Below are positions 34,383 through 63,715 of a stretch of 64,000 bases of DNA, one piece after another. The notes beneath the pieces were generated by a model. That model had not been told where the DNA came from. It did no database searches and saw nothing but the letters and a program-made list of their open reading frames with translations. The DNA lies in NCBI RefSeq assembly GCF_003725955.1, contig NZ_QIBZ01000007.1, positions 1 through 64,000 of the forward strand, read 5' to 3'. Source of the stretch: Slackia isoflavoniconvertens. GTDB lineage: Bacteria; Actinomycetota; Coriobacteriia; Coriobacteriales; Eggerthellaceae. The translations under genes were made by a program, and so were the position numbers. How positions within the stretch are numbered: the stretch's first letter is position 1; each line of letters opens with the position of its first letter.

Positions 34383-34412
34383 AATGCCGCCCCGGTTTCC
34401 CGGAGCGGCATT
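34383..34412 (-). terminator. Terminator of rpoBC
   Basis: Stem AATGCCGC plus CCGG with complements, followed by TTTTGCG on the minus strand. It lies 25 bases past rpoC. Confidence 0.88.
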
Positions 34413-34437
34413 CAATGTCGTTTATGCGACTCGCACG

Positions 34438-38811
<4,374 letters not shown>

Positions 38812-41800
38812 TTACTCTTCCTCTCCTTCGCCGAAGGTGGACTTCGGCTCATCGGAGCCGATCAGGCTCTCAACATCGGGGTTCGCGTCGGTCACGTCGT
38901 TCATCATGCTCTGAAGGTCGGCAGCGATGTCGCTCAAGGCATCGGCCTGTTCCTTCTCGGTCTTGGAAGCGTCGTTCATCATGTTCGAGAGCATGTCATC
39001 GTCACCCTCGTTGTGATGACGGCTCGCCATGGCCGCCTTGGCTTCAAGCTCGGCGGCGTCGAAGTCGATCGCCTTGTGGTCTTCGCCGATCATCTCGACG
39101 TTGAGGCCCAAGGACTTGATTTCCTTCAACAGAACCTTGAACGACTCGGGCACCTCCGCGGGCGGGATGTTCTCGCCCTTGACGATGGCCTCGTACGCCT
39201 TCACACGGCCCGACGTGTCGTCGGACTTGATGGTCAAAATCTCCTGCAGCACGTTGGAAGCGCCGTACGCGTACAGCGCCCAAACTTCCATCTCGCCGAA
39301 GCGCTGGCCACCGAACTGGGCCTTGCCGCCAAGAGGCTGCTGGGTGATGAGGCTGTAAGGGCCGGTCGAGCGAGCGTGGATCTTGTCGTCGACCATGTGG
39401 CCCAACTTCAAGATGTAGGGGAAGCCGACCGTGATGGGCTCGCGGAAGCGCTCGCCCGTGCGGCCGTCGTAGAGCCACGTCTTGCCGAACTCATTGAGCT
39501 GCGGCACGAACTCGTCGCGGGCTTTATCGCCGTACTTCGCATGGTTCAGGTTGATGAGGTTGCGGTTCGCCTTGCCAATGACGTCGACGATCTCTTCCTC
39601 GGTCGCGCCGTCGAACACGGGGGTTGCGACGTACTTCGGACCCTCGACGGCCTCGGTGGTTTCGGCCTCGTCGGACCAACCCCACTTAGCAGCCCAGCCA
39701 AGGTGGCATTCGAGCAGCTGGCCGACGTTCATACGGGAAGGAACGCCCAGCGGGTTCAGCATGACGTCGATCGGCGTGCCGTCGGCGAGGTAAGGCATGT
39801 CTTCAACAGGCAGAACGCGAGAGATAACACCCTTGTTGCCGTGGCGGCCAGACAACTTGTCGCCCTGCTGCACCTTACGCTTCTGAGCGATGTACACGCG
39901 CACGAGTTCGTTGACGCCCGGAGCCATGTCGTCGCCGTTTTCGCGGCTGAAGCGATAGATGCCCACAACGCGTCCGCCAGCGCCATGAGGCACCTTGAGG
40001 GACGTGTCGCGAACCTCGCGAGCCTTATCGCCGAAGATGGCGCGCAGCAGGCGCTCCTCAGCGGTGAGCTCGGTTTCGCCCTTCGGGGTGACCTTGCCGA
40101 CCAGAACGTCGCCAGGGAACACCTCGGCGCCAACGCGAATGATGCCGTCGGCATCGAGGTCGGCAATCATGTCGTCGGAGATGTTCGGAATCTCGCGGGT
40201 GATTTCCTCGGGGCCGAGCTTCGTGTCGCGAGCGTCGACTTCGTATTCAGAAATATGGATAGACGTGAGCAGGTCTTCAGCAACAACGCGCTCGGACACG
40301 ATGATAGCGTCCTCGTAGTTGTAGCCTTCCCAGGTCATGTAAGCGACCATGAGGTTCTGACCAAGCGCCAGCTCTGCGTGGTCGCAGCTGGGGCCGTCGG
40401 CCAAAACGTCGCCCGCATGGACTTCGTCGCCCTTGCGCACGATAGGCTTGTTGTTGATGCAGCCGCTCTGGTTGGAACGCTGGAACTTCGGAACCAGGTA
40501 CTCGTCGAACTCGCCTTCATCATTCTTGATGATGATGGTAGAGCCGTCGACGTAGTCGACCACGCCAGGGTTCTGGGCAACGAGCACTTCGCCCGAGTCA
40601 ACCGCGATGCGGTGCTCGATGCCGGTGCCGACGTACGGAGCGTGGGGCTGCAGCAAAGGCACAGCCTGACGCTGCATGTTCGAACCCATGAGGGCGCGGT
40701 TTGCGTCGTCGTGCTCCAAGAACGGAATGAGCGAGGTAGCGACAGAAGTCATCTGACGAGGAGACACGTCCATGTAGCCGACGCGCTCGGGAGCGACTTC
40801 CTCGGGCTCGCCGAAGACGCCGTCGGCGTCACGGGTGCGGCACAGAATCTTTTCAGACGGCACGAACACGCCATCGATGGTCTCGCCGAATACGCGCGTC
40901 TCGGGGTCGAACTTCTCCATAGCCTGGGCGATGGCATAGTTCTCTTCCTCGTCGGCGGTGAGGTAGTCGACCTCGTCGGTCACCTTGCCGTCGATAACGC
41001 GACGGTACGGAGTTTCGATGAAGCCGTAGCTGTTCACGCGAGCGAAGGTCGCCAGCGAGCCGATAAGGCCGATGTTCGGGCCTTCAGGCGTCTCGATGGG
41101 GCACATGCGGCCGTAGTGCGAATTGTGAACGTCGCGAACCTCGAAGCCTGCGCGCTCGCGCGACAGACCGCCAGGGCCCAGAGCAGACAGACGACGCTTG
41201 TGCGTGATGCCTGCGGCGGGGTTTGCCTGGTCCATGAACTGCGACAGCTGCGAAGAGCCGAAGAATTCCTTGATGGCAGCCACAATGGGGCGAATGTTCA
41301 CGAGGCTCTGCGGAGTGATTTCGTCAGGCTCCTGCATGCTCATGCGCTCGCGCACAACGCGCTCCATGCGCGAAAGGCCGATGCGGAACTGGTTCTGGAT
41401 GAGCTCGCCGACCGTGCGGATACGACGGTTGCCGAAGTGGTCGATGTCGTCGACCTGATAGCCCTCTTCACCCTCATGAAGGGCAACGATGTAGCGCATG
41501 GTTGCGACGATGTCTTCAATGGTGAGCGTAGAAGCGTCGAATTCGGGATCGAAGCCAAGCTTCTTGTTCGCCTTGTAGCGGCCGACCTTGGCGAGGTCGT
41601 AGCGCTGCGGGTTGAAGAACAGGCCGTCGAGCAGCGTGCGCGCGGAGTCGATCGTAGGAGGCTCGCCCGGACGGAAACGCTTGTACAGCTCGATGAGCGC
41701 CTCTTCCTTGGTGGTCGCGGGGTCGCGATCGAGCGTGCGCAGAACCATCTCGGAGCTGCCGAGGATATCGATGATTTCTTCGCGGGTGTCGGCGATGCCG

Positions 41801-42405
41801 AGGGCGCGCAAAAGCAGCGTGGCCGGCTGCTTGCGCTTGCGGTCGATGCGAACCGACAGAATGTCGCGCTTGTCGGTCTCAAACTCGAGCCATGCGCCAC
41901 GAGAAGGAATAACCTTCGCGCCGTAGATGGTCTTGTCGGACGTCTTGTCGCGCTCGGCGCTGAAATAGATGCCGGGCGAACGAACGAGCTGGGAAACCAC
42001 AACGCGCTCGGTGCCGTTAATAATGAACGTGCCACGAGGGGTCATGAGCGGGAAATCGCCCATGAACAGGTCGTTCTGATCTTTGATTTCGCCGGTTTCG
42101 CGGTTGATGAAACGAATCTTGGCATAGAGGGGCGCCTGGTAGGAGACGTCTTTCTCTTTGCATTCGTCGACGGTGTACTTCGGTTCGCCGAAGTGATGCT
42201 CGCCGAGCTCGACGCACATATCTTTGGTCGAATTCTCGATGGGGCACACGTCGTTGAAGGCTTCGGTAATGCCTTCTTCCATGAACCACTTGAAACTGTC
42301 GGTCTGGATGGCGATGAGGTTGGGGACATCGACGATGCCAGGGATCTTCGCGAACGAATGACGCTCCCTGTATACGCCGGCGCCGGTCTTTTCTGCCTTG
42401 GCCAC
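38812..42405 (-). CDS. rpoB: DNA-directed RNA polymerase subunit beta
   Basis: 1197 aa. The rifampicin-pocket region ([20 protein letters not shown] and [16 protein letters not shown]) reads as wild type; the serine of the rifampicin cluster and both arginines are present. The C-terminal block [24 protein letters not shown] joins beta prime. A further tail of about 90 acidic residues follows. AAGGAAGGAAGACCTGTGGCC-type purine-rich sequence lies shortly before the ATG. The order rpoB-rpoC is standard; rplJ and rplL are not upstream here. Confidence 0.98.
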
Positions 42406-42496
42406 AGGTCTTCCTTCCTTTGGGGTAAAAAGACGATATTCTTACCGTTTCGGCAGCCCTTTGGACGTGCTTACACGGCTAATTACGTAAACGAAA

Positions 42497-42525
42497 AATT
42501 TAAACACATTGAGAAATTAAGTCAA
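42497..42525 (-). promoter_or_regulatory. rpoB promoter
   Basis: On the minus strand TTGACT (42520-42525), a 17-base spacer and TAAATT (42497-42502) form a near-consensus housekeeping promoter about 85 bases upstream of the rpoB ATG. Confidence 0.7.
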
Positions 42526-42649
42526 GACTTTTTTTCACGAACTGTGTTGAGTTTCTGGTTTTGGAGATTTCCTTCAAGAGCTGGAACAGGCAAAATGGCA
42601 TGCGACAATCTTTTTGCGCCTTAGTTTCTTTTAGATAGTACTGCCTTGA

Positions 42650-50161: not shown

Positions 50162-52549
50162 TTACTCAATCTCAATCGATGTTTTCACTCTAATGCCGAT
50201 TTCGGCCATACGCTTGCGAAGCACAGCATACGTCACGCCCAAGAGCTCTGCCGCCAAAAGCAAATCGCCATCAGCCCCTCGAATCGCCTTGACGATACGC
50301 ATGCGATCAGCTTCTGCCACATTTTCATCTTGCGAAAACGCGCCCGTAGTTCCGGCGGGGAACCCCGCGCTTGAAGCAACGGAAAAAGCGGCATCCTGGT
50401 CTTGTCCCGAATGCAATTCCCCCGATTGCCAACCTGCCGAATGCTCGCTCGGCTCATCGGCCGCACGCAACCCAAAACCAGCCATCGCATCGAAGCCGAC
50501 GCCATAGGGCGACGCCCCAGAAACAACCTCGCCAAAAGGAGTCGACTCCTGGTAGCCATACCCCATTGCCGACGGCCTATCGTACGCTCCTGCCCCAACG
50601 CGGTCGAACACCGCCGAAGGCGAATACATGCCCGTCGGCAAGCCTCCACCCACCGGCGCCATGCGGCCAGACTGCCCAGCGACCGCCGCCATTGAGAGCG
50701 CGGGGCCTTCGAACGACATGCCCACCGATACGGCGTTCGCGACATGGACGGGCAAATCCTCAAGGGTCACCTTGGCCCCCTCTCCTGCCATAATAAGGCT
50801 GCGTTCAACAACGTTGCGCAACTCTCGCACATTGCCGGGCCAAGTGTAATTCGCAAGCGCCTTCATAACGTCTTCAGGCAGGGGAGTGCACGGCAGACGA
50901 AGCGAGTCTGACAAATCTCGATTGAAATGATCGACGAGCAAGGCCACATCGCCTTCACGCTCGCGCAAAGGCGGCAGGGATATTTCGACCATGCTCAGGC
51001 GATAGTACAAATCGGCGCGGAAACGGCGCTCATTGATAAGGCATCGAATATTCTGATTCGTAGCAGCCAGAAAACGCACGTCAAGCTGATGCGGCTCGGT
51101 CGACCCAAGGCGCGTGACGCTTTGTTCCTGAATGACGCGCAGCAAGCCCACCTGCAAATCGAGGGGCATTTCGCCAATCTCGTCCAAAAACAGCGTTCCG
51201 CCTTCGGCCGCTTCAATCTTTCCGATCGAACCGCCTTCTTTGGCTCCCGTAAACGCGCCCGCCTCGTAGCCAAACAGCTCGGCCGCGAAGAGGTCACGGG
51301 GAATCGCCCCGCAATTGATTGCAACGAACGGCCCCTTGCGGCCGGACATGCGATGCAAGGCGCGCGCCACAACCTCTTTGCCTGCACCCGTCTCACCCAA
51401 AAGCAAGACATTGGTCTTAATGGGCGCCACCTTGCGAACGAGTTTATCGACCTTGCCCCATGCAGGCGACTCGCCGATATAGTCGACAACGTCTTTCACC
51501 GAAGCGCGGCCAAGCGACTTGCGGCTCCCCTCTGCGCGAGCCCCTCCCCCGTTCGATGCCTGGCCCTTTCCCGACTTTGAAGAAGAGTCAGCCCCAACGG
51601 ACGGCACATCGAACACGCACACAACGAACGAGAGCCCGTTGCCAACGTCAACCGCCGACCGATGCAAAAGCGCCAACTCGCGTTCTACCTTCTTTCGCCC
51701 CTCTTTGAATACCACGGGCAAGGGCTCGCCTTCTTTCACGGGCGACTCGAGTACATATTTCACGCCCGTCTTCTTCGAGAGGTACGCGGAAAGCGATTGG
51801 GACCCATAGGAAAACGTCTCATACCGAGGGATATAGGAATGCATGGCTTCATTTGCGATGAGCACATTGCCGCGCCTGTCGAGAACAAGCACCGGCTGAT
51901 TCATGAGGCGAATAAGCGGCTTGAAGAATTCAGCCGTCGATAGTTTCGCCCGCATGCCACGACCGGCAAGGAAGAGCTCATTGGCCAAATCGACCGCTGT
52001 CGCGCACATATCAAGGGCGCATTCGGGAAGCATTCCGAACGGGTTATTGAGGTTCATGGCGCCGAAATACACCCCTCGGTTATCGAGGAAGGGGGCGCTC
52101 ACGCCAGAATAGGTTTGAGAAATGGCCCTATACTGTTCGAAGCCATCAGCGCGTACGGGCTTCTTCTCGTAAGGAACAATGGTCGCGTTTCCCGTTCCCA
52201 CGACTTCCTCGAGCACATACGTGCCGAACGTGCGCGGATAATAGCTCAAGGGCGACTGAAAGCCGAACACAAAGCTTTCCTGATCCATAAGCGAGACGTT
52301 GCAATTCAGTAATGCCACAAGCATGCGCATAACGGGCATATTCGCCGCCAGCGAGTGGGCATAAGCCCGCTGCTTTTCGGCAAGCAGCTTTTCGTCCATA
52401 GAAGGAAAGTCGCTCGACCAAGGATTCACGCCCGCCGCTCGGCAGCGCTTCCATGAACGCGCGATTTCGGGGCGAACAACGCTTTCGTCGATTTCGCCCG
52501 TCGCAATGAACCTTCGCCACGCTTCAACTTGACTTTTCTGATCGTACAT
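50162..52549 (-). CDS. Sigma-54-dependent enhancer-binding activator (GAF-PAS-AAA+-Fis)
   Basis: 795 aa. Order: GAF-like sensor (about 70-200, as in AcoR), PAS (about 215-310), AAA+ domain (about 355-600), a Gly/Ser/Met/Tyr-rich linker of about 130 residues, and a Fis-type HTH at the end ([16 protein letters not shown]). Walker A GETGAGK (385-391), the sigma-54 contact loop GAFTGA (431-436) and Walker B GGTLFLDE are intact, so it should remodel sigma-54 holoenzyme. ATG 52549 follows GAAGAAGGGGTCG. It lies 74 bases after rpoN on the same strand and near three -24/-12 promoters, making the acyl-CoA genes its probable targets. Confidence 0.92.
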
Positions 52550-52623
52550 CGACCCCTTCTTCCCCATTGCCTCTATGCGGGCCCCCCAATTGGCCCATCG
52601 TCACGCAACGTCGCGCGCGTCCA

Positions 52624-54084
52624 CTACGAATCGCACGACCACCGACGACGCGATTGCGCTTCGATGCCGAGAGACTCTCGATACTTCGCAACCGTGCGTC
52701 GCTTTATCTCAATGCCCTTCTCATTCAGCGCGGCGCATATCTTCGCATCGCTCAATGGATGGCTCTTGTCCTCTGCGGCGATAAGGTCTTTAATCATCTG
52801 CTTGATTTCGAACGACGAAACAGCACCCGTTGTCGCCTGCGCCCCAAGACCCATGCCAGAAGAAACCCGCGGCATGGCGCGCGTGAAAAACATTTTCAGC
52901 GGGAACGTTCCCCATGGCGTTTGGATATATTTTCCCTGCACAGCTCGACTCACCGTAGATACATGAATGTCAAGAGCATCGGCCGCCTGCTGCATGGTCA
53001 GCGGCGAGAGCGCCGAGCCGCCCGTGAGGAAAAACTTGAACTGCCGTTCTACCAGAAACACGCCGAATCGCTGCAGCGTTTGACGACGTTGTTCAAGATT
53101 GCGCAAAAAGGAATCAGCTTCCTCGCGCTTCTCGCTCAAATACGCCGCTACCTCACGCGCAAGGCCCTCTTCTTCCATCATCGCCACGTACTCGGCGTTC
53201 AACGCCAGGCAATTTTTGGAAGCTCCCACCACCTCAACGGTAAAATCGGAGCCCTTTCGGCGCACGATGATATCGGGGATGACATAGCGCGAATCGGGGC
53301 GTTGATAGAACGCCGAGCCTGGACGAGGGTTCATGCCGCGAACCACGCGCTTCATGCGAGCGACCTCATCGACGGACACGCCAAGTTCTCGAGCGATTGC
53401 AGGTAGCCTGCCTTGGGCGAGATCGTCGAGGTAGCCTTCTATGAGCTCCGACATAACTTCGGGATGCGGCTCGTCGTCGGGAATCTGAAGCTTCAGACAT
53501 TCACGAACATCATGCGCGCCAACGCCTCGCGGCTGAAGGCGCTGCAACGCCTCGAGCAGCCTTTCGGCACACGCATATTCGACATCGCACTCAAACGCCA
53601 CCATGCCGACATCGCCAACGAAGTACCCGTCGTCGGTCACGTTATCGATAAGAGCATTCATGACCCCAAGGTCGCAAGCGCTCAGATGCAAATCGGTCAC
53701 CTGAAGGTGCAGGAACTCATGCAGCGTTTCGGTCTCTATGCAATCATCCTGGATACGAGAAAAGTCCCACTCGGTTGCGCCCGCGATTCCAAGCGTATGG
53801 CGAGGAGCCGACCAACCCGTAACGTCGTACGCCTTCGCTTCGGCACGCTCCTTCGCCTCTTCGAATGCCGACTCGCTCGGAAGGGCATCGTAGCTGAATA
53901 AATCGTCTTCGTAATTGATTTCAAGAAGAGGGTTCGACTCGGCCATAGAGGCAATGCGATCGGGAAGCGAGGCAACTGGCAACGCAAGCACTTCAAGGCC
54001 CTGCATCGAAACGGGGGCGAGACGCGTTTTCGTCTTCGTGGACGTTCTCGGCGTCAAGCCCGTCGACAAAGTACCAGAAACCAC
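52624..54084 (-). CDS. rpoN: RNA polymerase sigma-54 factor
   Basis: 486 aa. Region I (LAPVSMQGLEVLALPV to SNPLLEI) is followed by an acidic region II. The core-binding domain (MNALIDNVTDDGYFVGDVG), the HTH (MQQAADALDIHVSTVSRAVQGKYIQTPWG) and the RpoN box (KRRTVAKYRE near residue 465) are all complete. It directs polymerase to -24/-12 promoters and needs an AAA+ activator, encoded just downstream. The start is a GTG at 54084 with AAGGGGGC upstream. Sigma-54 is generally regarded as absent from most actinobacteria, so its presence here is notable. Confidence 0.94.
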   Translation of the reverse strand: MVSGTLSTGLTPRTSTKTKTRLAPVSMQGLEVLALPVASLPDRIASMAESNPLLEINYEDDLFSYDALPSESAFEEAKERAEAKAYDVTGWSAPRHTLGIAGATEWDFSRIQDDCIETETLHEFLHLQVTDLHLSACDLGVMNALIDNVTDDGYFVGDVGMVAFECDVEYACAERLLEALQRLQPRGVGAHDVRECLKLQIPDDEPHPEVMSELIEGYLDDLAQGRLPAIARELGVSVDEVARMKRVVRGMNPRPGSAFYQRPDSRYVIPDIIVRRKGSDFTVEVVGASKNCLALNAEYVAMMEEEGLAREVAAYLSEKREEADSFLRNLEQRRQTLQRFGVFLVERQFKFFLTGGSALSPLTMQQAADALDIHVSTVSRAVQGKYIQTPWGTFPLKMFFTRAMPRVSSGMGLGAQATTGAVSSFEIKQMIKDLIAAEDKSHPLSDAKICAALNEKGIEIKRRTVAKYRESLGIEAQSRRRWSCDS

Positions 54085-54289: not shown

Positions 54290-54305
54290 TGGCACAAAAT
54301 ATGCT
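54290..54305 (+). promoter_or_regulatory. Sigma-54 (-24/-12) promoter of the GNAT gene
   Basis: TGGCACAAAATATGCT: the GG and GC doublets have the exact sigma-54 spacing and 6 of 6 bases match in TGGCAC. Expected transcription start about 54316, 49 bases before the GNAT ATG. Confidence 0.65.
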
Positions 54306-54364: not shown

Positions 54365-54916
54365 ATGAACACATCGGGGAACGGCATCGCACAGACGCAT
54401 GAAACGGACGCGTTGGATTTGAGTACCATGACGAAGCACGAAATGCCTTACGGAATTGACGCCATAGCCGAAATTCGTATGTCGACCCCAGCGGATTATC
54501 CCGCCATTATTCGCATGGGCGAGGCGGCCGACATGGGCACGCTCGACGGCTTCGAGGACACGCTTGTCGCGACACATCTCTCTGGCGGCATCGCGGCATT
54601 TTGCCGCCTTCGCATCTACGACGGCATCGCACACGTCAATCCAATCGTCGTCGACGAATCGCTGCGCGGCCATGGCGTGGGCGCAGCGCTCATGAAAGCC
54701 GCGCGGGAGCGCTACGGCGAACTCCGCTTCGTCGCTCGCGGCTATGCGGTGGGGTTCTACAAGTTCATTGGATGCACCCCCGTCGAATGGGATGAAATTG
54801 CCCCCGAAGTCGCATCCGATTGCGATGATTGCGAAAAGCGGGACGAATGCCAGCCGCTCCCGATGAAGTACCCTATCGAAAACGAAGAGCGCGCAATCAC
54901 CACTTCCCTCGATTAA
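54365..54916 (+). CDS. GNAT-family acetyltransferase with C-terminal cysteine cluster
   Basis: 183 aa. A GNAT fold spans about 40-150, with the acetyl-CoA loop RGHGVGAAL and the closing strands VARGYAVGFYKFIGC. The last 30 residues carry a Cys cluster (DCDDCEKRDEC), which could bind a metal or be redox active. ATG 54365 follows GGGGGATGAAC. It is the only gene behind a good -24/-12 promoter and is divergent from rpoN. The acyl acceptor is unknown. Confidence 0.75.
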   Translation: MNTSGNGIAQTHETDALDLSTMTKHEMPYGIDAIAEIRMSTPADYPAIIRMGEAADMGTLDGFEDTLVATHLSGGIAAFCRLRIYDGIAHVNPIVVDESLRGHGVGAALMKAARERYGELRFVARGYAVGFYKFIGCTPVEWDEIAPEVASDCDDCEKRDECQPLPMKYPIENEERAITTSLD

Positions 54917-55711: not shown

Positions 55712-56509
55712 TTAGCGCTGATTCTTTGCCTCGGGAGCAGGATCTGCGGGACCAGCATATGTCTGAACGATAGAGGCATACGTGCGAGCTTCGTCGCCCA
55801 CAACCTCAAGATCGGTGTCCATCCAATTGCGACGGCGAATCGCCACGAGCGCCCAGTCACGAGCGGAGCCCTTAATATAATTCGGGCTCGCAGGATCACC
55901 CTTCGCCCATACCTCACCCGAAGGCAAGGTGAGCTCAAGGTACATCGGAACCTCGGGGTCGAAGGTGAGGCCATTCACGTTGTACATGTTCGGACGGCCC
56001 TGCCACGAGAGGAACAGCGTGGAGGCAATGCGATCTTTGACAACGGGTTCAATGCCAAGAGCGTCGTAGATATCGACGCTATGAGCCCAAAGCTCCATAA
56101 GGCGCGCAGACGCAAGCGAACGATTGGACATGGGGGGAATGCCGGCCGCCCAAGGCACGCGGCTCTTGGGGCCACCCGCAATAAACGCCTCATTCATGAT
56201 GGTGCGCTGCTCGCGCCACCAGGAAAGAATTTCGGCGCCGGTCATGTCCTGGCACTTCAAAACATGGTAATGCTCGTCCTGGTCGCTGAATGCGTCCGCG
56301 ACGGCATTCACGCTCTCACCACGGCCATTAAGCAGCTCCGCGGCGCAATAATCGAAAAACGCGATATGGGCAATGACGTCTTTCAGCTTCCACGTCGTGC
56401 AATACGACGCCATTTTGTTCCAGTCTTCCTCAGAGAAATCCTGGACAAGCACGTCAACCTGCGCCTGCTCAGCAAGCAAGTCACCCATCGGGTCAAAGAA
56501 TTCAGCCAT
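55712..56509 (-). CDS. DinB-like/maleylpyruvate isomerase-family protein (TIGR03084-like)
   Basis: 265 aa. An N-terminal DinB-like four-helix region has the family's metal-site histidines (DVIAHIAFFD, and later LWAHSVDIYDALG). Actinobacterial relatives are annotated as mycothiol-dependent or TIGR03084 proteins of unknown function. ATG 56509 (MAEFFDPM) follows AAAGGGGAACGAC. It lies 180 bases after the CaiA-like gene on the same strand, so it may belong to that sigma-54 unit. Its role in the acyl-CoA pathway is not known. Confidence 0.7.
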   Translation of the reverse strand: MAEFFDPMGDLLAEQAQVDVLVQDFSEEDWNKMASYCTTWKLKDVIAHIAFFDYCAAELLNGRGESVNAVADAFSDQDEHYHVLKCQDMTGAEILSWWREQRTIMNEAFIAGGPKSRVPWAAGIPPMSNRSLASARLMELWAHSVDIYDALGIEPVVKDRIASTLFLSWQGRPNMYNVNGLTFDPEVPMYLELTLPSGEVWAKGDPASPNYIKGSARDWALVAIRRRNWMDTDLEVVGDEARTYASIVQTYAGPADPAPEAKNQR

Positions 56510-56690
56510 GTCGTTCCCCTTTCTTTTGATTCCGTCGCCCATCGCGCGATGAAATCACGTCACTACACGGAAGCCTGAGTGCTTTGGCTTTGGCCACGCG
56601 TCAAAGCCTGCATGCTCTTTAGGCACGCTCGATACACCAGACTCCCATTCGTTGGCTTTTCACGCGAGCAATACACGCCCGCGACCCACA

Positions 56691-57866
56691 TTAGTCTTGA
56701 TAGAGTTTCTGAATAGCGCGGCCTGCAATATGAATCATGATTTCATCGGTGCCGGCGCCAATACGATAGACGCGCTGGTCACGCCACAAGCGAGAAATAC
56801 GGCAATCCTTGGTGTAGCCGATACCGCCCATGACCTGCAAGGCCGTGTCGCACACCTCGAACGCCGCGCGGCCACAATACAGTTTCGCCACCGCGGAATC
56901 GATTTGCACCGGTTCGCCGTTGTCAATCTTCCATGCGGTCTTGTACACCCAGTTGCGCATGTTTTCAATCTTCATGTACATCTCGGTGATGTGCTCCTGG
57001 ATGAGCTGGTTCTTGCCGATGGGCTTGCCAAACTGCACGCGCTGGGTTGCGTAATGCGTCGCATCCTCAAACGCGCATTCGGCGGCACCGAGGCTCTGGG
57101 CACATGCGATAAGGCGCTCGACCTCGAAATTCACCATTGCCTGCATGAAGCCATTGCCCTCAACGCCCACGAGGTCCTTCTCTTCGAGGACGACGTCTTC
57201 CATATGAAGCTCGCAGGTATTGCCCATATTCCAGCCGATTTTCTCAAGCGGCTCGATGGAGATACCCGGCGTGAGGTTGCCCTCGTCATCGCGCAGGGGT
57301 ACCCACCACATGCTGAACTTCGAACGATTCTCGCGCAAAGTGGGATCGTCGGCCGCATTGCGTGCGACGCAAAGCATGTACTTCGAGTTCACGGCGTTGG
57401 TCATGAACGATTTATTGCCATTGAGGTACACCTTACCATCGCGACGCTCGTACGTAGAAGCGAGCGAGCTCGAGTCGGAGCCGGCACCAGGCTCGGTGAA
57501 ACCAAGCACGAAGCCCGGTCGACCAGCCATAACCTCAGCGAAACACTGCTCCTGCTGCTCAGGGGAACCGTATTCCGTCATGTCTTTGAGCGCGCACAGG
57601 TTGCCGTACACATAGATGGGCGCACCATTTTTGCAGATGCGCTCAGAAACCAGCATAAGCGTCATCACGTCAACGGGCGTACCACCGAACTTCTCGTCGA
57701 CGCCGAGCATCTGAAAGCCGTTTTCAAGCAGCGCGTCAGTAAATTCCGTCGGCCACTCATGCTTCTCGTCGCACTCTTTGAAATACTGCTCAGTGCCATA
57801 GCGCTCCATCAGCTCGTCGACGCTCTCGAGCAACAACTCTTGTTCTTCGGTAAGGGCGAAATCCAT
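56691..57866 (-). CDS. Acyl-CoA dehydrogenase, crotonobetainyl-CoA reductase (CaiA)-like
   Basis: 391 aa flavoprotein. It resembles E. coli CaiA along its whole length: start MDFALTEEQELL, TEPGAGSDSSSL, RDGKVYLNGNKSFMT, AFEDATHYATQRVQFGKPIG, VMGGIGYTKDCRISRLWRDQRV and the end GTDEIMIHIAGRAI. Members oxidise acyl-CoA or run in reverse to reduce 2-enoyl-CoA. ATG 57866 follows GAGGAAAGGAAAACC. A consensus sigma-54 promoter lies 83-98 bases upstream and separates it from the ligase terminator. The natural substrate is unknown; no carnitine transporter or CaiB is nearby. Confidence 0.85.
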   Translation of the reverse strand: MDFALTEEQELLLESVDELMERYGTEQYFKECDEKHEWPTEFTDALLENGFQMLGVDEKFGGTPVDVMTLMLVSERICKNGAPIYVYGNLCALKDMTEYGSPEQQEQCFAEVMAGRPGFVLGFTEPGAGSDSSSLASTYERRDGKVYLNGNKSFMTNAVNSKYMLCVARNAADDPTLRENRSKFSMWWVPLRDDEGNLTPGISIEPLEKIGWNMGNTCELHMEDVVLEEKDLVGVEGNGFMQAMVNFEVERLIACAQSLGAAECAFEDATHYATQRVQFGKPIGKNQLIQEHITEMYMKIENMRNWVYKTAWKIDNGEPVQIDSAVAKLYCGRAAFEVCDTALQVMGGIGYTKDCRISRLWRDQRVYRIGAGTDEIMIHIAGRAIQKLYQD

Positions 57867-57948
57867 GGTTTTCCTTTCCTCTGTTTCCCGCATCCTTGCT
57901 TAACGTTCACAACATCGCATGACTGCGCTGCGATTCTGATAAGCAATT

Positions 57949-57964
57949 AGCAAGAAGCGTGCCA
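57949..57964 (-). promoter_or_regulatory. Consensus sigma-54 promoter of the CaiA-like unit
   Basis: Minus strand TGGCACGCTTCTTGCT, a full match to TGGCACG-n4-TTGCW. It differs at one base from the promoter at 62649-62664. Expected start about 57938, 70 bases before the ATG. Confidence 0.85.
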
Positions 57965-57969
57965 AAATG

Positions 57970-58001
57970 AAGAGACGCTGCCCAAAAGGACAGCGTCTCT
58001 T
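57970..58001 (-). terminator. Terminator of the CoA-ligase gene
   Basis: An 11-bp perfect stem AAGAGACGCTG/CAGCGTCTCTT, then CATTTTGG on the minus strand. It lies 31 bases past the ligase stop and only 5 bases before the next -24 element. Confidence 0.8.
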
Positions 58002-58032
58002 AAAAATATAATTCAACATTCGGAAAGGGCCG

Positions 58033-59601
58033 TTACTTCTCGACGTGAGCGTCAAAATAGGCAACGACGTTTTTCATTCGAATCTTTCCCGCATCATCGC
58101 GGCCCAAGTTGTCAACGAACAGTACATAGCGCGGCTTTTTGTAGCTTGCGATATAGGCCTTGCAGGCCTCCTGCACGTCTTGCGCCGTGAGGGTTTTACC
58201 CTTCACCGGTTGCACCACGGCAGCGACAGCCTCGCCCATCACCGGATCGCTCGTGCCAAAGACCACGCAATCGGCCACATCGGGATTTCTCAAAATGGCG
58301 GTTTGCACTTCATTGATGAACACGTTTTCGCCGCCCGATTTGATCATGTCCTTTTTGCGGGCGCACAGGTAGTAGTAGCCGTTTTCGTCAACGCGCATGA
58401 CGTCGCCCGTATGCAGCCATCCATCGGGCGTAATGGTGTTTGCGGTAATTTCAGGCTGCCCATAATAGCCACTCATCACCGCGGGGGATTTGACAAGGGC
58501 CTCACCAGGCTCGCCAGGCGCCACATCGTCTCCTTCATCGTCGACGATGCGTATTTCCATCTCATCCATCGGCTTGCCAAGTGCATCGAGCAGCGGGGAA
58601 TCCTCTTCCAGCATCTCGCGCGTCAAACGCATCGTAATGCCGGAGCCGCTTTCGCTCTGCCCCCAGCCGTAATTGATTTCAGCATTGGGGAATGCGCCGT
58701 ATATCGCCCGCACGATTTCGGGCGTCATGGCGCCCGCCGCGCTTTGCACAATGCGAACGGTCGACAAATCGTGCGACGACACGCCACCATCGCGGACGAG
58801 GCGAACGTAGGTCGTCGGCGGCAGCAGAATCATATGCGTCACCCCATGCTCATCGATTTGGTCGAGCACGGCGTGCGCATCGAACTTCCCGCAAATGACG
58901 ATCGTTGCGCCAGCCGAAAGGGCACACATGAACCAGCTATGGCCACCATGGTGCTCAAGCGGGCATTGAATAAGGACGACAGGGTGGTCCATTTCAAGCA
59001 TGGCGTTCGAGCGCAGAATAACCCGAATTTCCGCCAAATCCTGCCCATGAGTACGGCATGCGCCTTTCGGAAGGCCGGTTGAGCCGCCCGTAAACTGCAC
59101 GCGCGAAAGAGCGCCCTCGTCACGGAAAAGCTCAAGGTCAGGCTCAGCGGGCGCGGAAAGGTCGAACAAGCGCGGTGCGAACGGCGTCGATGCGCCAACG
59201 GCAAGAAGGTCGAGCTCGGGATTGAAATCGCGACGGCTCTCGACGACTTTCTCTTCGAATTTCTTCGCGAATACAAGGAGCTTCGCATCGACCGCATTCG
59301 TGAGATATGCGATTTCGCGAGGAATAAGTCGATAGTTCAAAGGAACGGCAACCGCTCCGATGCGCTGAATCGCCAAATAGACGGCGATAAGCTCGACGCT
59401 GTTCTCCATGAGATAGGCTACCTTGTCGCCTGTTTCCACGCCTCGATTGCGAAACGCACGGGCGATTTTGCAAGCCAAGGTATCCAGCTGCTCATACGTT
59501 TGGGTAATCTCGCCGCATACGCAGGCAACACGCTGCGGGCGCTTTTCAACATTCTCAAGAAATGGCTCGATAATGTTGCCATATGTTGTTGCCCCAGACA
59601 C
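58033..59601 (-). CDS. Acyl-CoA synthetase (CaiC-like AMP-forming ligase)
   Basis: 522 aa from GTG 59601 (GAGGGGGCCAAG upstream); ATG 59625, eight codons earlier, has no clear site. ANL-family ligase: P-loop TGGSTGLPKGA, the GWGQSESG adenylate motif, HTGDVMRVDENGYYYLCARKKDMIKSGGENV, and the C-terminal catalytic lysine (DDAGKIRMKN). It activates a carboxylic acid to its CoA thioester. It follows the enoyl-CoA hydratase gene on the same strand, the third gene of the unit starting at 62589. The acid is unknown. Confidence 0.88.
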   Translation of the reverse strand: MSGATTYGNIIEPFLENVEKRPQRVACVCGEITQTYEQLDTLACKIARAFRNRGVETGDKVAYLMENSVELIAVYLAIQRIGAVAVPLNYRLIPREIAYLTNAVDAKLLVFAKKFEEKVVESRRDFNPELDLLAVGASTPFAPRLFDLSAPAEPDLELFRDEGALSRVQFTGGSTGLPKGACRTHGQDLAEIRVILRSNAMLEMDHPVVLIQCPLEHHGGHSWFMCALSAGATIVICGKFDAHAVLDQIDEHGVTHMILLPPTTYVRLVRDGGVSSHDLSTVRIVQSAAGAMTPEIVRAIYGAFPNAEINYGWGQSESGSGITMRLTREMLEEDSPLLDALGKPMDEMEIRIVDDEGDDVAPGEPGEALVKSPAVMSGYYGQPEITANTITPDGWLHTGDVMRVDENGYYYLCARKKDMIKSGGENVFINEVQTAILRNPDVADCVVFGTSDPVMGEAVAAVVQPVKGKTLTAQDVQEACKAYIASYKKPRYVLFVDNLGRDDAGKIRMKNVVAYFDAHVEK

Positions 59602-59706
59602 CTTGGCCCCCTCATTTCGGCCCATGCAAATTCATCAAGCACCCTTCAATACCAAGGGCGCAATGGGCGGCCGCCGATGCCGGCAAAGCCGCCCGTCCCA
59701 AAAGCC

Positions 59707-60474
59707 CTAGCGGGCGAACTTCTCCATAGTTTTGGCGTAGGCTTTCGTCGTGGTGCAGAACGGGGAACTCGTCTGCTCCAGCGCGAGCGAAGCCTGGAGA
59801 TTGGTATCGCTCAAAGAGTTCAGCATCCCCTTCGCCACCTGGATAGACGCATCGGGCATTTCCGCCAATCGACGCGCGAGTTCCATCGTTGTTTCCTCGA
59901 GGGATTCCGACGGAACCACGCGGTTCGCAATGCCGAGCTCGCCCAGTCGCACGCCAGAAATGCGATCGCCCAGGAAGAGGATTTCTTTGGCGCGCTGCAT
60001 GCCAACCAATTCGGGCAAGAATTTCACCACGCCCATCTCGGGAGCAATGCCGATTTGGCAAAACGCCGGAATCACAGTGGCCGTCTCGCTCACGCATACC
60101 AAATCGCTCGCGAGCATGAGCGCGAAACCGCCGCCCACGGCATAGCCGTCGACCATGGCCACAATCGGCTTGGCAATAGTGCGCATGGCGGTGACGGTGC
60201 GGCAATACTTGCGATACGTTTTACGCGCGTGCTCGGGGGTGTTTTCCTCGGGGGAGCTTTGGCTCAAATCGCCGCCGCTCGTAAAGCAGTTGCCCGAACC
60301 GCGAAGGACGATCGCGCGAACTTCTGGGTCCTCGTCGGCAGTATGGAAGCATTCCGTCAGTAAATCCATCATGGTGGCGTTAATGGCATTTTTCTTTTTG
60401 GGCTGGTTCAGATACACAACCGCAACGCCGTCTTCGCCTTTTTCCATGTAGACCATATCGGTGTTTTCGCTCAT
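59707..60474 (-). CDS. Enoyl-CoA hydratase/isomerase family protein
   Basis: 255 aa crotonase fold. The oxyanion-hole region (CFTSGGDL) and the helix VDGYAVGGGFALMLASDLV with IGIAPEMGVVKFLPELVG, where a catalytic Glu sits, are evident. Likely hydrates or isomerises a 2-enoyl-CoA. ATG 60474 is preferred over GTG 60483, which touches the GGGAG site. It starts 12 bases after the oxidoreductase gene and leads into the ligase. Confidence 0.87.
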   Translation of the reverse strand: MSENTDMVYMEKGEDGVAVVYLNQPKKKNAINATMMDLLTECFHTADEDPEVRAIVLRGSGNCFTSGGDLSQSSPEENTPEHARKTYRKYCRTVTAMRTIAKPIVAMVDGYAVGGGFALMLASDLVCVSETATVIPAFCQIGIAPEMGVVKFLPELVGMQRAKEILFLGDRISGVRLGELGIANRVVPSESLEETTMELARRLAEMPDASIQVAKGMLNSLSDTNLQASLALEQTSSPFCTTTKAYAKTMEKFAR

Positions 60475-60486
60475 AGCAGGCACTCC

Positions 60487-62589
60487 CTAGATGGCGCAAG
60501 CGGCAACGTAGCCAGCCTTGGTCGCATCGGCGATACGATGCGGCTCATCGGCGTCACCAACCAAATACACCTCGTCGCAAATGCCCTTGAGAGATTCAGC
60601 CAGAGCATGGTTCGGCTTGAATCCCAACGTAATCGCGACGGTTTTCGCGGGAACGAAAATCTCGGTCTGATTGCCCTCTTTATCGGTCTGAACAGCCTTG
60701 ACTCCCTTATCGGTAATCTCGGTGACCTTGGTGAGCGCATGCATTTCGATGTTTTCGGCCTTCTTGAAGCCATTGATCAGGCCGAAGCGATCGGAGCCGC
60801 CCACGTCGTAGCCGATCTTCTTTTTCTCCTCGATAATGGTGGCGCGGCGCCCGGTCTCCATACACAGGTGACCCAGCTCGCAACCCGGCAAGCCGCCGCC
60901 GATGATGGCGACCTCGCGGCTCACAGGCCAATTCATGGCCGTAGTCGCCCAACGGGCAAAGCTCGGAGTGTAGTGCATCTTCACAACGTTGGTCGCACCC
61001 CACCACATAAAGTTGTTGAATGCGCTCTTGGTGTGCGGCGTGTTGCCGTTGAGCATCTCGAGCAGGTCGTGGGACTGGAGCACGTTGGCGTTATCCACGC
61101 CAGGAACATCGAGCGTCATAACATCGCCACCGATTGCGACGATAACAGCATCGGGCTTGGCCGCCTTAACCACGGAAGCATCGACTGGGGTCTTCAAATG
61201 CACCTTGATTTCGGGATGCGATTTCACCAGGTTGTTCATGTAGTCGAGATAACGCTCGTGATAAGGACTGAAAATCGAAGACATCTTCACGCAGCCACCC
61301 AGACGGGGGCCTGCTTCGTAAAGATCGACCTCATGGCCGCGCTCAACGGCGCACACGGCTGCATTGATGCCAGCCGGGCCAGAACCCACGACCATCACGC
61401 GCTTTTTCTTCTCCGCTTTCGGGTACATCTCGTGATCGAGCTCTGCGCCCAAATGGGGGTTCACGCCGCAGTAATTCATCGGCTTGCCCTGGCTCACCAC
61501 GTCATCGAGGCAACGGCAGCACACGATGCACTTGCGCATATCGCAGGTTCGATCTTCCATGACCTTTCGAGGAAGGTCGGGGTCGGCGATGCTGTAACGA
61601 AGGCCAGCGATCACGTCGACCTTGTCCGCCTGAAGAGCTTGCTCCATAGCGGTCGGGTCGGTATTGCGGTAACCCTGAGCCACCGGTTTCTTGGCGACGG
61701 TCTTGATTTTCTGGGAAATCCACGTCCAGTGGCAATCTTCGATAACTTTCGTGGTCAGAGGCTCGCTCGTCTCGTGCCAGCCCACGGCCAAATCGTGCAA
61801 GTCGGCGCCAGCCTCTTCAAGCATGGGCGCAATCTGCAGCGCTTCCTCCATGGAAAGGCCCTCGCCAGCAGGGCTCTTGATGAAGTCGATCGGGCTCCAA
61901 CGAACGACGATGGGGAAATCGGGGCCCAAGGCCTCGCGCACGCCCGCGATGACCTCGCATGCGAAGCGGGCACGATTCTCGATGCTTCCGCCGTATTCGT
62001 CGGTGCGGTTGTTCGTCGCCTTCGCCATGAAGCGGCTCATGATGCCGCCAACGCCCGCCATAACCTCGATGGCGTCGAAGCCAGCTTCCTTGATGACGCG
62101 AGCGCCATTGATGTATTGCTTCTGGAAGTCGTGGATTTGCTCAATGGTCATGGCCTTGAAGCCGCTCATGAATTTCAGAATGGCGATATCGGAGGGGCCA
62201 TACGCGCTTTCGGGAAGCTCGTCGGAGGGCTTCCAATCATGCACGCAATAAAGCTGAGCGCAAATAAGGCCATCATGCTTGTGCACGGGGTCGACCATAT
62301 ATTTCTTCAAGTCGGGAATGCACGTCTCGTCGTAGCACGAAGGCAGAGCATGAATCATCGGATTGCTCGCCTCGAGCTCATTACGTTTCCAGGGAACAAT
62401 GGTCTGAATAATCATTGCCGTCTGGCCAGCGGCGCGCTCTTCAAGATAATTCGCGAGACGTTGGGTGGGACGATTGTCGGGCGTAACATAGCCCAAACCA
62501 GGCGACATCGACGTGGTAATCATGCGGTTCTTCAGCGTAACGCCATTGACCTTCAGCGGGGAGCCGAGGATTGGGTACTCTTTGCTCAT
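60487..62589 (-). CDS. Old-yellow-enzyme / 2,4-dienoyl-CoA reductase-like iron-sulfur flavoprotein
   Basis: 700 aa. N-terminal FMN TIM barrel (about 1-370; NGVTLKNRMITTSM start; FDAIEVMAGVGGIMSRFM), then a 4Fe-4S Cys cluster (CIVCCRC with a Cys before and one in NYCGVNP), then a pyridine nucleotide/FAD domain with VMVVGSGPAGINAAV and the second nucleotide motif VAIIGGGLPGCELG. This is the FadH/BaiCD/enoate reductase architecture; members reduce C=C bonds of enoates or enoyl-CoA with NAD(P)H. GAAAGAGGGGTTTCGCGC precedes the ATG. It is the first gene of its unit, 60 bases after a consensus sigma-54 promoter. Confidence 0.9.
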   Translation of the reverse strand: MSKEYPILGSPLKVNGVTLKNRMITTSMSPGLGYVTPDNRPTQRLANYLEERAAGQTAMIIQTIVPWKRNELEASNPMIHALPSCYDETCIPDLKKYMVDPVHKHDGLICAQLYCVHDWKPSDELPESAYGPSDIAILKFMSGFKAMTIEQIHDFQKQYINGARVIKEAGFDAIEVMAGVGGIMSRFMAKATNNRTDEYGGSIENRARFACEVIAGVREALGPDFPIVVRWSPIDFIKSPAGEGLSMEEALQIAPMLEEAGADLHDLAVGWHETSEPLTTKVIEDCHWTWISQKIKTVAKKPVAQGYRNTDPTAMEQALQADKVDVIAGLRYSIADPDLPRKVMEDRTCDMRKCIVCCRCLDDVVSQGKPMNYCGVNPHLGAELDHEMYPKAEKKKRVMVVGSGPAGINAAVCAVERGHEVDLYEAGPRLGGCVKMSSIFSPYHERYLDYMNNLVKSHPEIKVHLKTPVDASVVKAAKPDAVIVAIGGDVMTLDVPGVDNANVLQSHDLLEMLNGNTPHTKSAFNNFMWWGATNVVKMHYTPSFARWATTAMNWPVSREVAIIGGGLPGCELGHLCMETGRRATIIEEKKKIGYDVGGSDRFGLINGFKKAENIEMHALTKVTEITDKGVKAVQTDKEGNQTEIFVPAKTVAITLGFKPNHALAESLKGICDEVYLVGDADEPHRIADATKAGYVAACAI

Positions 62590-62648
62590 GCGCGAAACCC
62601 CTCTTTCTCATGTTTCATATATGCAACCACCTTGATGCATAGGAACTA

Positions 62649-62664
62649 AGCAAAAAGCGTGCCA
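62649..62664 (-). promoter_or_regulatory. Consensus sigma-54 promoter of the oxidoreductase-hydratase-ligase unit
   Basis: Minus strand TGGCACGCTTTTTGCT, a full match to the sigma-54 consensus. Expected start about 62638, 49 bases before the ATG of the oxidoreductase gene. Confidence 0.88.
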
Positions 62665-62787: not shown

Positions 62788-62947
62788 AACGTACCCTGAG
62801 CAAACATCATGCCGACAGTCGCAGCATTCGTGCGCAATCGTCCCTTATGCATAGGCATGTTTTTTGCTACAACAGGGCTAATGGAGAAATAGTGTGCTCG
62901 GAAAGCGCGCTTGAAATCAAACGATTCACGAGAGGGTGTGGCCTTCC

Positions 62948-63715
62948 ATGGCAAAGAAGACCGTCGATATCAATGTCGGGAAAAGCAAGTTCTCGCGAAA
63001 CCAAAAAACAGGAGGCTCGACGAGCGTTCAGCTCGACTGCGCCAACGGCAAGCTCCCCTTCGACATCGCCATCGAGCTTCCCGATGGCCGCGCCCATGCC
63101 GTGGTAAGGCGAGGACGCACGCTGCCGATTCACCAAGAGGAGCTGTTCTCTACAGCATCGTCATATCAAACCGCAATGGAATTCCATGTCGTTTACGGAA
63201 ATCGCCCTTTGGCGAAAGACTGCGAAAGCATCGCGCGCATTCGCCTTCGAAATATTCGCTGGTCGGCAGCCGGGGTTCCGAAAGTCACGGTCAATTTCGA
63301 CGTGGATAAAACAGGCCTGCTCACCATTGGCGTCAACAATCTCGATCGAAAAGACGAAGCCATCGTTGAGACGAACGAGATTCCCACGGGGTTCAACGAG
63401 ACCGCGCACGCTGCCGAAGGCGAAAACGCCGCATCCGATGCCGCGGAACGCGAACGTATTCGCGAGCTCGACGAAGCCCGCGAATTGCTGCGACGCCTCG
63501 ATGATGAGTATCACGTATCAAAGCGCGCCATGAAATGGGGCGAAAAACGCGAATACAAGCGCGTCCGCAAGAGCATCGTCGACATCGTCTCGCAACCGCT
63601 GTCGAAAACGAGCAATGCCGATATGAAAGCGCTTCGACTCAACATGCAGGACATGCGCGGCCAAAAACGCGTGCTTGACCAGCGAAAGGCGCAAGTTGAA
63701 GGCTGGTATGACTAA
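62948..63715 (+). CDS. Orphan Hsp70 substrate-binding-domain protein (no ATPase domain)
   Basis: 255 aa. Residues about 36-140 read as the beta-sandwich substrate-binding domain of DnaK: LPFDIAIELPDGR, then LFSTASSYQTAMEFHVVYGN, then RPLAKDCESIARIRL, and GVPKVTVNFDVDKTGLL. Residues about 165-255 are charged helices, like an Hsp70 lid. The whole nucleotide-binding domain is missing, yet nothing suggests a broken gene: the frame starts at its own ATG 62948 with GAGAGGGTG upstream. It may bind unfolded peptides without ATP control or interact with a J-protein or DnaK. No chaperone gene adjoins it. Confidence 0.75.
   Translation: MAKKTVDINVGKSKFSRNQKTGGSTSVQLDCANGKLPFDIAIELPDGRAHAVVRRGRTLPIHQEELFSTASSYQTAMEFHVVYGNRPLAKDCESIARIRLRNIRWSAAGVPKVTVNFDVDKTGLLTIGVNNLDRKDEAIVETNEIPTGFNETAHAAEGENAASDAAERERIRELDEARELLRRLDDEYHVSKRAMKWGEKREYKRVRKSIVDIVSQPLSKTSNADMKALRLNMQDMRGQKRVLDQRKAQVEGWYD

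Follow-up and report, generated by a model that had tools for sequence, protein, structure and literature searches.

A 64,000-nucleotide stretch of contig NZ_QIBZ01000007.1 of Slackia isoflavoniconvertens (the window) carries two near-identical sequences that look like promoters for sigma-54 (RpoN). They lie in front of genes for acyl-CoA reduction. A first-pass annotation of the window had proposed that these promoters belong to a sigma-54 regulon built around acyl-CoA metabolism and controlled by a neighboring activator, an enhancer-binding protein (EBP). Our analysis confirms the observation. Judged from sequence, and taken jointly with the mechanism proposed below, the sites at 57949 and 62649 belong, as sigma-54 promoters, to one dedicated regulon with a probability of about 0.87. 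The locus contains the following features:

50162..52549, minus strand: EBP with a DhaR-like N-terminal sensor, an AAA+ domain with GAFTGA and a C-terminal Fis-type helix-turn-helix (HTH)
52624..54084, minus strand: rpoN (sigma-54), all regions present, RpoN box KRRTVAKYRE, Pfam Sigma54_DBD 171 bits
56691..57866, minus strand: CaiA/YdiO-like acyl-CoA dehydrogenase, predicted enoyl-CoA reductase; scores 635 bits with NCBIfam NF008997 (cut-off 537)
57949..57964, minus strand: predicted sigma-54 promoter (-24/-12) TGGCACGCTTCTTGCT, intergenic, 82 bases to the dehydrogenase ATG
57970..58003, minus strand: terminator predicted from sequence, a hairpin followed by T-rich DNA, 3' of the ligase gene
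58033..59625, minus strand: AMP-forming acyl-CoA ligase (CaiC-like role)
59707..60483, minus strand: enoyl-CoA hydratase/isomerase (CaiD-like role)
60487..62589, minus strand: Old Yellow Enzyme (OYE)-family Fe-S flavin oxidoreductase, 2,4-dienoyl-CoA reductase/BaiCD-like
62649..62664, minus strand: predicted sigma-54 promoter TGGCACGCTTTTTGCT, 59 bases to the ATG of the OYE-hydratase-ligase operon

The promoters, RpoN and the activator

Both 16-mers are found on the minus strand exactly where the annotation had placed them and differ at one base. They have the -24/-12 form TGGCAC(G)-N4-TTGC with exact spacing. The pattern TGGCACN5TTGCT matches the window at these two sites and nowhere else, versus 0.01 matches expected from shuffled sequence. 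When two mismatches are allowed, the window contains 74 matches versus 76 expected. There is no excess at this level, and therefore only near-perfect sites are informative.

The downstream genes are those originally named, the dehydrogenase behind the 57949 site and the OYE-hydratase-ligase operon behind the 62649 site. Both sites are intergenic, correctly oriented and close to a start codon. The distance of 50-70 bases to the ATG, as first given, holds for the OYE gene (59 bases, ATG at 62589) but not for the dehydrogenase gene (82 bases, ATG at 57866) when it is measured to start codons that have a ribosome-binding site. The open reading frame of the dehydrogenase begins at 57893, nine codons too early. 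The predicted terminator at 57970..58003 would separate the two transcription units.

RpoN can be aligned over its length with sigma-54 of the E. coli type. It has the activator-interacting, core-binding and DNA-binding domains, although the first scores slightly below its Pfam cut-off (22.3 vs 23.8). The activator carries GAFTGA, as annotated, together with Walker motifs in its AAA+ domain and an HTH (HTH_8, 21.1 vs a cut-off of 22). Across the whole genome, PF00158 finds one real EBP at 216 bits, and the next match has 33 bits. The genome thus has a single rpoN and a single EBP of at least 200 bits, adjacent to each other at 50162-54084. Because the only true EBP sits beside the only rpoN, the assignment of this protein as the activator of the regulon is well supported. 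That the pair travels with the cluster (see below) also argues for control by this protein. Contamination as the source of rpoN was rejected: the window contig carries rpoC, and complete genomes contain the cluster as well.

A structural model of EBP residues 1-355 (mean pLDDT 70) matches E. coli DhaR(N) best, with a Foldseek E of 2.3e-11, as for a GAF-PAS sensor of the DhaR/AcoR type. The TM-score of the whole model is low (0.31); therefore the domain arrangement differs or is poorly modeled. The match suggests that the N-terminus is a cytoplasmic ligand-sensing GAF-PAS region, in keeping with induction by a substrate.

Further sites and inheritance of the cluster

The genome searched comprises 2.25 Mb on 53 contigs and belongs to the same genus as Slackia equolifaciens (G001). 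The genome-wide scan suggested by the first-pass annotation, run with TGGCAY-N5-TTGCT, gives 12 matches versus 0 for the reversed control. Eight of the 12 are intergenic and precede pathway genes; two of these are the window sites already described, and the other six lie on contig C12. The other four lie within apparent coding frames and were discarded. A 19-kb part of C12 contains eight sites when up to one mismatch is allowed, where 0.67 are expected, and site-to-ATG distances on this contig range from 35 to 125 bases. The genes behind the C12 sites encode MFS transporters, three CaiB-like type III CoA-transferases and a protein that we take, from our own reading of its sequence, to be a class I glutamine amidotransferase-like protein.

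The annotation had its two named sites right. It overlooked the six perfect intergenic sites on C12 and likewise two probable plus-strand sites in the window, at 54290 and 62853. The regulon extends beyond the two units that the annotation named. The additional sites and neighboring genes in the window are:

54290..54305, plus strand: probable sigma-54 promoter TGGCACAAAATATGCT, one -12 mismatch, in the rpoN-GNAT interval before the GNAT gene
54365..54916, plus strand: GNAT acetyltransferase, conserved in the cluster
55712..56542, minus strand: DinB/MDMPI-fold protein, conserved cluster member (78-92% identity)
62853..62868, plus strand: possible sigma-54 promoter upstream of the HSP70-like gene, AGGCATGTTTTTTGCT, one mismatch
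62948..63715, plus strand: HSP70-like protein matching the C-terminal part of the Hsp70 model alone, conserved in the cluster

Other species retain the GNAT-side site between rpoN and GNAT/DinB (L076:4103, L073:3994, L071:7076), and it is perfect in L117:12628 and L126:14955. Orthologs of the HSP70-like gene in other genera have comparable sites upstream, and the gene of this stand-alone protein possibly has a sigma-54 site of its own. Equivalents of the 62649 promoter stand before OYE in G011 (L070:18982) and before MFS-OYE in S. equolifaciens (L072:4594). When the intergenic regions before MFS2 and GNAT are aligned, the -24/-12 element is a conserved block in diverged surroundings. Among 78 collected sites, the first spacer base, which the search left unspecified, is G in 84%. 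A G after TGGCAC belongs to the published sigma-54 consensus. The sites are concentrated near rpoN: five of six in G406, five of 10 in G413 and six of eight in G011.

In five genomes, sigma-54 sites stand back to back between the HSP70-like gene and CaiB3, with their -24 elements 3 bases apart (L109:1863-1897, L111:11038-11072, L113:9094-9128, L117:1619-1653, L126:1901-1935). The pair is nearly palindromic, so that two polymerases could hardly bind it at the same time.

The two loci of the window genome are joined in G011 as one continuous cluster, and in S. equolifaciens the genes are ordered alike, split over two contigs. The order is CaiB3, CaiB2, CaiB1, MFS, regulator, MFS, HSP70-like, MFS, OYE, hydratase, ligase, dehydrogenase, DinB-like, rpoN, EBP and further genes; sigma-54 sites stand in front of one unit after another. 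The gene set recurs in further genera, G357 included, and Eggerthella lenta is probably among the carriers.

Of 138 Eggerthellaceae genomes, 31 from 14 of the 48 genera have a PF04552 match. A sample of 396 genomes of the phylum gave 21 with a match, 18 of which exceed the family cut-off. An EBP of at least 200 bits is present in 29 of the 31 rpoN-positive Eggerthellaceae, while none of nine rpoN-negative genomes tested exceeds 36 bits. Outside Eggerthellaceae, genomes have one to three EBPs. The EBP of G439 is split over two open reading frames (L115:3113-5214), possibly by a frameshift or a sequencing error.

The cluster with rpoN and EBP inside is found in 15 Eggerthellaceae genomes; all 107 rpoN-negative ones lack it. 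Orthologs of the dehydrogenase (at least 82% identity; range 82-91%) show the same distribution, 15 of 31 versus 0 of 107 (Fisher p = 7e-12, without correction for phylogeny), and lie close to rpoN wherever both positions are known. The RpoNs of the 15 cluster genomes form a single clade in all bootstrap trees. Three genomes (G452, G461 and G517) have two full-length rpoN genes and two EBPs each. Their second, distant rpoN-EBP modules (L119 in G461, L121/L122 in G452, L125 in G517) lie beside CoA-transferase, acyl-CoA dehydrogenase, ligase, electron transfer flavoprotein (ETF) or OYE genes. We lean, by a small measure, towards a portable, pathway-dedicated sigma-54 in Eggerthellaceae: rpoN, EBP and the acyl-CoA reductase cluster would be gained and lost together, and a genome with two clusters would have two pairs, each serving its own.

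The proposed regulon and its rivals

We infer the following mechanism. RNA polymerase with RpoN would wait in the closed state at each -24/-12 site. The neighboring GAF-PAS-AAA+-HTH activator, probably once a pathway substrate or product has bound to its sensor domain, would hydrolyze ATP and open all promoters of the regulon. The output would be MFS uptake carriers, type III CoA-transferases, CoA ligase, enoyl-CoA hydratase, an OYE-type reductase of dienoyl/enoyl type and a CaiA/YdiO-like enoyl-CoA reductase. With these, the cell would reduce unsaturated or hydroxylated organic acids of the gut in the form of CoA thioesters, and the acids would most likely serve as electron acceptors. Much of the case for such a regulon around acyl-CoA metabolism, as the annotation had supposed, comes from the genome-wide excess of sites, their intergenic placement and conservation, and the frequent G.

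The dehydrogenase belongs to NF008997, which we take to be the family of E. coli YdiO. The OYE protein resembles NCR, 2,4-dienoyl-CoA reductase and trimethylamine dehydrogenase. In Eggerthella, G406 and G413, a promoter just downstream of the EBP gene precedes FixA/FixB-like ETF genes. These are the expected electron donors and would complete a CaiABCD-Fix-like reductase system in other genera. Slackia etf genes were considered as sigma-54 targets and rejected; they are unlinked pairs on C1 and C17 without a good upstream site. The Eggerthella acyl-CoA ligase (L079:12413-15001) is fused to a metallo-beta-lactamase-fold domain that the 530-residue Slackia protein lacks. Altogether, the gene set may function in the manner of a Cai/Fix system, reducing CoA-activated unsaturated acids.

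Several results weigh against a sigma-54 regulon of this kind. The 57949 promoter is not conserved: in S. equolifaciens and G011 the dehydrogenase directly follows the ligase, so its support comes from the quality of the match and its position. The whole-genome count of S. equolifaciens equals its control (5 vs 5). The family-wide excess in rpoN-positive genomes is modest (p = 0.0006, or 0.017 after subtracting controls, phylogeny uncorrected). Since genome-wide counts are weak in some species, we used position and orthology as evidence. In Eggerthella, a conserved "site" upstream of caiA falls within the ligase reading frame and encodes a conserved TGTELAK peptide; therefore it is probably no promoter. 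Finally, dyad counting and inverted repeats gave no shared enhancer motif upstream of the promoters, as the candidates fell in upstream coding sequence or came from non-independent homologs.

The sites could be chance matches, or be conserved for other reasons, with transcription starting from sigma-70-type promoters. A few chance occurrences of TGGCAY-N5-TTGCT are indeed found in any Eggerthellaceae genome (mean 2.6 in rpoN-negative ones), and coding sequence accounts for one conserved instance. Against this reading stand the clustering of the sites, their intergenic position, their conservation before orthologs and their co-occurrence with rpoN and EBP, and we consider it very improbable. 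Hardly more probable are genuine sigma-54 promoters activated mainly by a distant EBP or by the large BTAD/AAA regulator, whose gene lies inside the transporter/CoA-transferase locus and is conserved in S. equolifaciens and G011. Sigma-54 polymerase needs an AAA+ activator of the GAFTGA type and the genome has one, while no sigma-54 interaction domain was found in the BTAD protein. What speaks for such a regulator is that other E. lenta pathways are controlled by transmembrane LuxR regulators (PMC9734109).

The rival with most in its favor, although still unlikely, is a true cai system in which sigma-54 specifically controls the reduction of carnitine or crotonobetaine. L-carnitine CoA-transferase is the best family of the CoA-transferases, E. 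coli CaiB their best solved structure (255 bits), and CaiA-, CaiC-, CaiD- and Fix-like partners are present. However, all three CoA-transferases stay below the carnitine family cut-off (346-355 vs 413 bits), and the dehydrogenase, while above the NF008997 cut-off, falls short of the one for crotonobetainyl-CoA dehydrogenase (403 vs 540 bits). The carriers are MFS proteins, and no CaiT-type transporter was seen among the genes of the clusters, where alone it was looked for. Three CoA-transferases and an OYE enzyme suggest several or other substrates. As a lead only, acylcarnitines are among the metabolites that E. lenta depletes most in mice (PMC10234575). Filing the cluster as a carnitine pathway is not justified, and we retain a dedicated sigma-54 regulon for the reduction of CoA-activated acids as the preferred reading.

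Apart from this regulon, the window contains a 2746-codon open frame at 34384-42624 (plus strand) without a Pfam match. It is antisense to two long minus-strand reading frames, of which the first can be read as rpoC, while rpoB is presumably the second. The open frame is probably not a gene.

Novelty and comparison with known systems

Sigma-54 regulation as such is already well known. Its occurrence in Actinomycetota is unusual, and so is the form it takes here, in which one sigma factor and one activator are dedicated to a single acyl-CoA reduction cluster and inherited along with it. In a 2011 survey, Actinobacteria were reported to lack sigma-54 (PMC3162934), and our literature search found no paper describing it in Coriobacteriia or Eggerthella. 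Here sigma-54 is intact, and it goes with a single activator and a single pathway, in a family of gut bacteria noted for drug, steroid and diet chemistry. If the E. lenta copy operates likewise, the genetic tools published for that species (PMC9734109) allow direct tests of the regulon, of its inducer and hence of the substrates. If that copy behaves alike, the promoter pattern is also a way of defining a whole pathway from sequence.

The cluster shares with E. coli caiTABCDE-fixABCX a CaiB-type CoA-transferase, CoA ligase, enoyl-CoA hydratase and CaiA-type reductase and, in several genera, a fixAB-type ETF. Unlike cai-fix, it has MFS carriers, an extra OYE reductase, several CoA-transferases, and sigma-54 with a dedicated EBP encoded within the cluster. 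The E. coli carnitine system is regulated by CaiF, CRP and FNR. Similar to the bai operon, the cluster combines an OYE Fe-S flavoenzyme with a ligase, a type III CoA-transferase and an MFS carrier, but its OYE protein is far below the BaiCD cut-off (312 vs 825 bits).

The EBP resembles DhaR/AcoR-type activators in its sensor fold, which matches DhaR(N), its central AAA+ domain with GAFTGA, its C-terminal HTH and its nearby target operons. In contrast to them, the Slackia protein has a long linker before the HTH, adjoins rpoN and is the only EBP of its genome, and identity in its sensor region is at most 18%. The single-activator systems of Chlamydia and Borrelia likewise combine one sigma-54 and one EBP in small genomes (PMC3162934). 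Unlike in those, the Slackia pair is encoded within its own catabolic cluster, in Actinomycetota, and is patchily shared together with that cluster.

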